From: Bacteroidota bacterium | Lineage (GTDB): Bacteria > Bacteroidota > Bacteroidia > 2-12-FULL-35-15 | Direction of reading: 5' to 3' | DNA length: 64,000 nucleotides | Assembly (NCBI GenBank): GCA_025963715.1 | Contig: JAOQAG010000037.1 | Coordinates: 1-64,000, forward strand | Shown: positions 37,865 to 59,174 of the stretch, in pieces | Numbering within the stretch: the first letter of the stretch is position 1 | Layout of the letters: each line of letters starts with the position of its first letter | The notes under the pieces: model-generated | Seen by the model: only the letters and a program-made list of their open reading frames with translations | What the model was told of the DNA's origin: nothing | The model's database searches: none | Program-made: the position numbers and the translations under genes

Positions 37865-38213
37865 TACGAATAACGCCCGCCTGAACGATTCGGGCAGGAA
37901 CAGGAACGAAAAACGAATCTGTATGGTTGCTGTGTATAAATGTTTATTTTCTATTAAGAACTCCCCTACGGAGTTGTCATCCCGTGCTTGACACGGGATC
38001 TCATAAATGTTTGCAATAGGCTTTTATTAGTTCTTAACTGGCAGATCCCGGGTCAGGCCCGGGATGACAGCATAAAAGAGAGATTGGTTTCCAAATTATA
38101 CATCACGCATTCACACAGATTTGTAAATTCGTATTGATTTGTAATTCGTAACCACAGATTCGTAATATTCGTTCCTGTTCCTGCCCGAATCGTTCAGGCG
38201 GGCGTTATCCGTA
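37865..38213. repeat. Composite F-A-A-F nested palindrome
   Basis: Outer 46-bp inverted arms (37865..37910 and 38168..38213, one mismatch) carry an inner GCCCG-CGGGC hairpin. Between them sits an A doublet (37975..38002 and 38040..38070) and G-like words (38118..38165). The A left arm has a stem CCCGTG/CACGGG, changed on both sides. The block fills the space from the rarA stop to the rnpB terminator. Confidence 0.9.
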
Positions 38214-40912: not shown

Positions 40913-41150
40913 GCCACAGATTCACGGATTTTTGTTTAATAAATAATTACACGGATAAATCGCAAAGCGATTTTTACTGATCTGCGCAATTCTTAATTCC
41001 TCCTTTTTAATCTGTGAATCTGTGGCTTCATACACATTGGCATGGCGCGCTACGCCTTATGTTTTCTTTGTGCGGTATGTGGTAGATTTTTGTTTTACGC
41101 CTTGCCACACACAAATTAGTATATTGGTAAAAATTGGTATTTAGTAGATC
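40913..41150. repeat. Family B copy 3, half C and G modules
   Basis: B arms 40913..40930 (one mismatch) and 41009..41026 enclose AAATCGCAAAGCGATTT (40957..40973). A right-hand half of C follows (about 41051..41085) and then G (41107..41150). The G part runs through the comEC stop codon. Stretch 40822..40912 shows only D-like words. Confidence 0.85.
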
Positions 41151-57317: not shown

Positions 57318-58067
57318 ATGGATCCGATTTATTACATCCTGATCATTGTATTGGTGCTGGTTTTTGCCGGGGTCCTTTTCCGGTTACGGAAAAGCGAGCG
57401 GCAATTAAAACAAGGCTATAAGCTGTTAAAAAAAGAAAACGGCGAATTGCTGAACCAGATCCATGCGCTGGAACTGGAAAATTCCAAATTCAGGCTGAAC
57501 CCGCACTTATTTAAAAATACGCTTAATTCTATACAAGGATATGCTTACCGTACGCACCAGGCCATGGAAAAGCTGGGTGGCGTGCTCGATTATATTTTAT
57601 ATGAAAGCAACGTACAATACATTGCCATTAAGGACGAGCTGGAATTTGTCAGGAATTTTATTGAGCTGAATAAAATAAAACTGGGGCCGCTGTTCGATTT
57701 CCGGTTCAGGATCAGTGTAAACGAAGGAAATCCTTTTTACGACGAGCCGCTTGTATCGCCGCTGATCACTGCTTATTTTATTGAAAATGCATTTAAGCAT
57801 GCGGAACTTACCAGCAAAGATGCATTCATTTCTATTTTGTTTGAGCTGAATGACGATGAATTTATTTTTACGGTTTCGAACAAGATCAACAAAATGCCGC
57901 ATTTTAATCCCAATAGCGGCATTGGAAAAGAGAATATGAAAAAACGACTGGAGATCCTGTATGGCAAAGCCTGCAGCGTGGATTATTCGGTGCTGGAAGA
58001 AGTACACATTGCCCGTTTACAAATCAATTTACGAGATGTTAAAAATAAAGTGCATCCTGCTGGATGA
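57318..58067 (+). CDS. LytS-type sensor histidine kinase
   Basis: This 249-residue kinase has a single N-terminal membrane helix (5-21), a coiled coil (about 25-57) and the His_kinase domain with FRLNPHLFKNTLNSI (phosphoacceptor His63), followed by a HATPase part (ENAFKHA, GIGKENMKKRLEILYG). A periplasmic sensing domain is absent, so the input may come from a partner membrane protein. I choose ATG 57318 (MDPIYYILI); a TTG at 57309 lies in the promoter box. Its 3' end overlaps the regulator gene by 32 bp. Confidence 0.92.
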   Translation: MDPIYYILIIVLVLVFAGVLFRLRKSERQLKQGYKLLKKENGELLNQIHALELENSKFRLNPHLFKNTLNSIQGYAYRTHQAMEKLGGVLDYILYESNVQYIAIKDELEFVRNFIELNKIKLGPLFDFRFRISVNEGNPFYDEPLVSPLITAYFIENAFKHAELTSKDAFISILFELNDDEFIFTVSNKINKMPHFNPNSGIGKENMKKRLEILYGKACSVDYSVLEEVHIARLQINLRDVKNKVHPAG

Positions 58068-58755
58068 TGAATTACCGGGCCTGACCTACCTGCGGATGTT
58101 GTGCGAGCAGTTCCCCTTTATTGAAGTGGTGAAATGCTTTGATTCGCCATTGAACGTAATTGAAGAATTTAAAACACTGGAATTTGATCTTTGCCTGCTG
58201 GACATAAACATGCCCGGATTAAGCGGACTGGAAGTGGCGCAGGTGCTGAAAGATAAATACATCATTTTTGTATCGGCGCACCCCGAATACGCTGCTGATG
58301 CTTATGACCTGGAAGCAATTGATTTTATAAAAAAACCGGTAGCAAAAGAGCGGTTGGAAAAAGCATTGAACAAGGCATACAAGCTGATCACGGAAAAAGA
58401 AAGCCGCAAAACCTATTTCAGCTGGAATACCAACCAGGGAAAATCCATGTTGTTTTTTGATGAGCTATTATACATCAACACTTCCGAGATCGATAAGCGC
58501 GATAAGCTGGCGTATCTGAAAGACGATCAAACCCTGCTGCTGAAAAACATTTCCATTGAAAAATTATTGTCGCTCCTTCCTTCCGGCGAATTTATACAGG
58601 TAAATAAAGCGGAGATCGTTTCTAAAAAAACGATTCAGTCGCACGCTGCAGATGAAATTACTTTAAAAATAAAACATCCTTCAAAAAAGCAATTTGTGGT
58701 AACACTGGGTGATTCATTCCGGAAAAATTTTCAGGACTGGCTGAGATTCTACTAA
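58036..58755 (+). CDS. LytTR-type response regulator
   Basis: This 239-residue regulator has a receiver domain (1-120) with Asp10/Asp11, phosphoacceptor Asp56 (LLDINMPG) and Lys100, and a LytTR DNA-binding domain (about 140-239). It begins at ATG 58036 inside the kinase gene, so the pair is translationally linked. The final F-Y-stop codons are part of a 42-bp inverted repeat shared with 59048..59089. Targets are unknown; LytTR sites usually lie near the regulator's own targets. Confidence 0.93.
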   Translation: MLKIKCILLDDELPGLTYLRMLCEQFPFIEVVKCFDSPLNVIEEFKTLEFDLCLLDINMPGLSGLEVAQVLKDKYIIFVSAHPEYAADAYDLEAIDFIKKPVAKERLEKALNKAYKLITEKESRKTYFSWNTNQGKSMLFFDELLYINTSEIDKRDKLAYLKDDQTLLLKNISIEKLLSLLPSGEFIQVNKAEIVSKKTIQSHAADEITLKIKHPSKKQFVVTLGDSFRKNFQDWLRFY

Positions 58756-59089
58756 ATACGAATGGATACCAATTTACTAATCTGTGTGTGCTGTGTGTTT
58801 TTGAACCACAAAAGAAAACAAAAGAAACAAAGGTTGGATGTAACATACCAATGCGTATTAGCCACAGATTCACAGATTAAGAATTAAAAAAGGAAATTAC
58901 TCAGATCATATCAATCGCTTTGCGATTTTATTTGTGTAATTGAATTGAAGCTAAAATCCGTGAATCTGTGGCTATATTGACCTGGCAAGGGCTTAGTCTT
59001 ATGTTTTCTTTTGTGCCTTATGTGGTGAAATTTTGGGTATCGCTATTACACACAGATTAGTAAATTGGTATCCATTCGTATTTAGTAGA
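58748..59089. repeat. Nested palindrome G-C-B-C-G
   Basis: Outer perfect 42-bp inverted arms (58748..58789 and 59048..59089) carry the G module. Inside are a C2 word (58804..58831), a family B element (58861..58878 and 58955..58972, with centre AATCGCTTTGCGATT at 58913..58927) and a right half of C (58998..59026). The order is mirrored around the B centre. Confidence 0.93.
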
Positions 59090-59174
59090 TTAACTGTTGT
59101 TACATTTTTTAACCCTTTCATTACATCCTTTCCGGTTTCATTACAGCTGCCTTTTTTCTGCCCTTTCATTGATT

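Follow-up and report, generated by a model that had tools for sequence, protein, structure and literature searches.

The window analysed here is a 64,000-nucleotide stretch of DNA from an uncultured Bacteroidota bacterium, the nearest named loci of which are metagenome assemblies. At the locus under study, a histidine kinase gene and a response regulator gene are followed by a 342-bp cluster of repeats, a gene for a small protein and one for a Na+/H+ antiporter. The order regulator, sometimes a small gene, then antiporter was found in many Bacteroidota. Positions of the individual features are given in Table 1.

Table 1. Features at the repeat cluster (positions in the window).
Feature	Position	Strand	Remarks
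Response regulator gene with divergent LytTR DNA-binding domain	58036..58755	+	Response_reg 1e-17; LytTR 0.001, just under cut-off; C-terminus changed by the insertion
Entire mirrored repeat cluster (insertion)	58748..59089	.	Absent in relatives; single copy in own genome and genus
Left G arm, 42 nt	58748..58789	+	Contributes the TAC TAA terminating the upstream gene
G-to-C linker TGCTGTGTGTTTTTGA	58789..58804	+	Seen again after other G arms (family D13)
Left C-type arm, CCACAAAAGAAAACAAAAG subtype	58805..58833	+	
B palindrome, ~116 bp, GCCACAGATTCACAGATT arms and AATCGC..GCGATT tip	58859..58974	.	Occurs as 44 paired copies over 1.57 Mb
Right C arm, CACATAAGGCACAAAAGAAAACATAAG subtype	58987..59026	-	
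Right G arm	59048..59089	-	Perfect reverse complement of left G arm
Direct repeats TTTCATTACA(T/G), two copies with a distance of 20 bp	59116..59146	+	Like motifs after the regulator gene in relatives; putative operator

The cluster (58748-59089) is built of nested inverted pairs, with G outermost, C-type modules within and B in the centre. The G pair (58748-58789/59048-59089) comprises 42 nt with 100% identity, the C-type pair (58807-58825/58997-59015) 19 nt with 95% and the B pair (58859-58878/58955-58974) 20 nt with 95%. The nest with perfect 42-bp arms described at 58748-59089 in the first-pass annotation was thereby confirmed. Since a first-order Markov resample of 183 kb yields no inverted pairs with score of at least 15, versus 237 in 787 kb of real sequence, the structure is real. 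As a single strand, the cluster folds far more stably than its shuffles (z -13.6 as RNA, z -13.5 as DNA). The same annotation described the interior as C words and a full B element in mirror order. The C-type pair and the central B are indeed present, but the mirror image is incomplete: the two C arms are of different subtypes (ACCACAAAAGAAAACAAAAG on the left vs ACCACATAAGGCACAAAAGAAAACATAAG on the right) and the left and right linkers between G and C show no mirror symmetry. These unlike linkers and C subtypes rule out that the cluster arose as one whole inverted duplication.

Next, we compared the end of the regulator gene with its counterparts in related bacteria. In the window, the encoded protein ends WLR-FY*, FY* being read from TTC TAC TAA (stop codon at 58753-58755) at the start of the left G arm. 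The G arm thus begins inside the last codons of the gene, as had been noted before, and now provides its stop codon. In locus L150 the regulator ends WMQN* and is followed directly by TTTCATTACAT / TTTCATTACATTTTTTCTCCGTTTCATTACAT, with no repeats between. In genomes G010 (WIG*) and G009 (RLPVM*), a short, module-free stretch leads up to a conserved CATTACAT motif, and in the window a motif of this type sits to the right of the cluster, at 59116 and 59136. Because the genes of the relatives end shortly before this motif without repeats, the cluster is an insertion, relative to L150, G009 and G010, between the last codons and the conserved motif; the relatives are distant (best regulator protein identity ~63%), and the empty site is read from where their genes end and from the conserved motifs rather than from nearly identical flanks. 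We could not assign a target-site duplication at the cluster. Its flanks are GGCTGAGAT and TTAACTG; the arm ends overlap any short duplication, and there is no near-identical empty site for comparison.

The TTTCATTACAT-type repeats that follow the regulator gene occur as two copies ~20 bp apart both in the window and in L150, and recur in G009 and G010. They are a candidate operator for the LytTR-type regulator. The provision of stop codons by G arms is not limited to this gene. The consensus G arm contains a TAA stop in all three frames, and ten genes in 1.57 Mb terminate within a G arm, six of them at the identical offset with TAC TAA. G arms concerned here are, among others, those at 41109-41149 and 58748-58789 of the window.

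Profile searches, with a pattern for B, detected 694 module matches of eight families in 1.57 Mb of the 4.91-Mb genome, one of which lies within a gene according to our home-made gene caller; the families were seeded from the window and contig C16, so that rarer families were missed, and the whole genome was covered by BLAST. Modules occupy 65% of intergenic regions between convergent genes, 42-51% between tandem genes and 25% between divergent genes. Each module of the cluster belongs to an abundant, nearly exclusively intergenic repeat family. G arms are ~40 nt long, consist of three TAC-NAAT words, end with CTGTGTG and fall into at least three subfamilies. A G arm followed by TGCTGTGTGTTTTTGAACCACAAAAG recurs with variation at several other loci, as does G plus linker plus C'. 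The combination B-C-G is found again at 40913-41149 of the window and at C42:96938-97174, and G-C with a partial B arm at C42:118662-118862. Since G-linker-C and B-C-G occur at these other loci, both halves of the cluster are recurrent combinations.

The exact B palindrome was found in three of 198 genomes of the class, own genome included. A search against Rfam gave nothing above cut-off, a plasmid collection contained no match, and in the literature on Bacteroidota intergenic repeats we found no paper describing these families. Two other long inverted pairs were seen in the genome. The first (46 nt, 98%), at 37865-38213 of the window, surrounds A hairpins together with a G arm that is present on one side only. 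The second is a near-perfect 60-nt pair at C16:233265-233847, 463 nt apart and outside all families used.

Is the mirror order special? Among 44 B palindromes, 17 are naked, 18 are capped on one side and 9 on both. The same nearest module stands on both sides in 2 of the 9 two-sided cores vs 2.46 expected (permutation, p 0.79), which, with only nine such cores, excludes a strong mirror rule and not a weak tendency. The best homologues of the cluster carry G-C on the right, with E-H2 (C42:96938) or D-H2 (40913 of the window) on the left. Nesting of one pair in another is exactly as common as side-by-side arrangement (10 cases each), and this, together with the cap permutation, led us to reject the idea that mirror order is a rule. 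The caps to the left and to the right of B are independent of each other, and the mirror order is the outcome of independent capping, given the fixed polarity of the modules. Where a genome abounds in such modules, an order like that of the cluster is for the most part expected by chance. The notion of a special mirrored design finds no support: mirror caps are no more frequent than by chance, and homologous B cores in the same genome carry caps that are not mirrored. Non-mirrored module orders in other genomes had been named beforehand as the observation that would refute the mirror idea, and orders of this kind were found within this very genome. A striking mirrored nest can thus come about when abundant polar repeat modules combine by chance, and the present case provides the control needed before such nests are called designed.

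The G arms, in contrast, are special in being perfectly identical. The arms of the cluster show 0 differences in 40 positions, while non-local G pairs (66 G arms) differ on average at 7.4 of 40; identical pairs number two among 2145, the cluster pair being one of them. The identity ends at the module boundaries. Tandem arrays of G monomers at C16:109222-109346 and C5:156011-156098, one of which alternates two subfamilies, suggest local tandem copying. As local tandem G copies exist, local copying does occur in the G family. These data point to perfect G arm identity as a trace of recent copying, the only one in the cluster.

In most families, the pairing of arms has not been kept up. For D, B, A2 and M, arms within one cluster fit each other no more closely than arms from separate clusters do; A is marginal (p 0.06). 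C arms have 3.6 mismatches to cluster mates vs 5.2 to others, and shared rare variants exceed chance in C only, most of them belonging to one subfamily with a one-base shift. C at least acts as a palindromic unit or undergoes homogenisation. General homogenisation of arms, which we also considered, was seen in C and not in D, B, A2 or M, with A again marginal.

These comparisons bear on the idea that the cluster is retained for a long stem working in RNA or DNA, for instance as a terminator or 3´-end stabiliser that separates the regulator from the antiporter operon. The very stable fold fits such a role, and so does the enrichment of the families between convergent genes with depletion between divergent ones. 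Depletion upstream of genes is, however, also expected from purging of insertions that damage promoters. No Rfam family is matched, and one weak terminator-like site was found vs 0.5 expected. Since D, B, A2 and M arms are no closer to their mates than to strangers, and A arms only marginally so, selected pairing is a poor explanation of G identity, and the unmaintained pairing in most families, with rare variants shared beyond chance in C only and mostly through the subfamily shift, argues against a selected hairpin function. A functional stem is thus quite improbable.

Perfect palindromes are known to be strongly unstable when the spacer is missing or short. In the cluster, 258 nt separate the arms, which makes the argument from instability weak, and so retention does not imply function. 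Of the two consequences that the first-pass annotation drew from retention, recent origin or function, the former is favoured by the absence of the cluster in relatives and by identical G arms against an average of 7.4/40 differences; the latter does not follow.

Perfect 42-nt terminal inverted repeats at both ends, identity that stops at the G module boundaries and an insertion missing from relatives would all be expected if the whole 342-bp unit were a single MITE. Such an element should be present as a complete unit at several sites, but the unit occupies one genomic place only. We looked for the same nest elsewhere and obtained no other copy, neither in the own genome nor in 36 genomes of the genus (best fragments ~50 bp). 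Furthermore, most of the 73 G arms stand unpaired, adjacent left-right pairs numbering 4, and homologous B cores end in other modules; a target duplication could not be made out clearly, as the arm ends overlap any short one. We therefore regard a single MITE as unlikely.

The perfect inverted repeats surrounding an interior segment also recall an invertible switch, the interior of which would be turned round by recombination of one G arm with the other. This is hardly credible here: no recombinase is present among the neighbours examined (kinase, regulator, small protein, antiporter), matches to promoters in the interior are below those in shuffles, none being beyond chance, and inversion of a near-palindromic interior would alter little.

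Two Y1_Tnp (RAYT-like) genes are present in the genome (C7:201850-202062 and C15:160523-160720; L147, L148), each edged by its own REP family, GTAGGCGCTAGGC.. and GCAGGCGCGAGTG.., respectively. Together with numerous palindromic intergenic repeats, they raise the question whether the cluster is a REPIN mobilised by the genome's own Y1 transposase. The repeats beside these genes are, however, different ones: GTAGGCGCTAGGCTCTGCCTAGTGAC has 20 matches in 1.57 Mb and GCAGGCGCGAGTGTCCCACTCGTGCC has 19, and neither gene was seen to be flanked by a G, B, C, D or A module. As both RAYT-like genes are bordered by other REPs, we do not count the cluster among REPINs and reject mobilisation of its modules by these RAYTs. 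Neither were two inverted REP hairpins with a GTAG or similar tag found in the cluster; on inspection, the G arm looks like three ~10-nt TAC-NAAT words rather than a hairpin. A REPIN origin is extremely improbable.

Taken together, the cluster is most likely a mosaic of small dispersed, probably non-autonomous G, C and B modules accumulated at a gene end. The B palindrome is its core, with G-C arms placed on each side in the polarity that those modules show genome-wide, and the modules would have gathered between the last codons of the regulator and the conserved repeats belonging to the promoter that follows. They may spread by copy-in, through a transposase acting in trans or through copying during replication or repair, and may survive where they are harmless, such as at gene ends. 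No mobilising enzyme could be linked to G, C or B, and the copy-in step is for this reason one that we infer. The identity of the two G arms could stem from recent local copying, through a template switch or gene conversion, or from their having been inserted together. Such a mosaic needs no specific function, and any effect on the 3´ end of a transcript would be incidental.

A more far-reaching proposal is a fixed grammar in which the outer caps (D, E, G) are directed towards an inner core (A, B, C, M). Left-type modules precede right-type ones in 198 of 209 multi-module regions, a figure that overstates the rule, since the polarity of E and M was set after viewing the data and the order within palindromic families is trivially fixed. 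Heterologous neighbours give a fairer figure (35 left-right vs 8 right-left), subject to the same choice of E and M polarity. We hold this grammar to be possible but rather doubtful. If true, it would indicate an undescribed copy-in mechanism adding modules at defined ends of existing palindromes. The wider repeat system could serve to ask how small repeats for which no enzyme is known spread and stack in Bacteroidota, and how insertions at stop codons alter protein ends.

Small dispersed repeats (SDR) of Nostoc are very small elements located beside or inside other repeats. By this description they resemble the modules of the cluster, a likeness that we take as a lead only; SDR are mentioned in PMC3116915. 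Mosaics are known from Anabaena, where GTAG-15 dimers occur inside longer palindromes, and from Neisseria, where CGTC-1 is interleaved with other repeat families (PMC3733652). Like them, the cluster joins small palindromic intergenic elements of several families, inserted in or beside one another. Unlike them, G, B and C have other sequences, were not seen to contain the tagged GTAG/CGTC REP hairpin and showed no link to the RAYT genes of this genome. With REPINs (PMC3116915) the cluster shares non-autonomous inverted pairs in extragenic space, but its arms are long strings of recurring short words instead of a tight hairpin, and the repeats flanking the RAYT genes are other families. The BrickBuilt MITE of Porphyromonas gingivalis (PMC4596501), also from Bacteroidota, is likewise always intergenic and modular, with internal word repeats, inverted ends and few copies retaining both ends. 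BrickBuilt, however, is a single defined element that contains a 23-nt minisatellite, whereas here several families combine freely.
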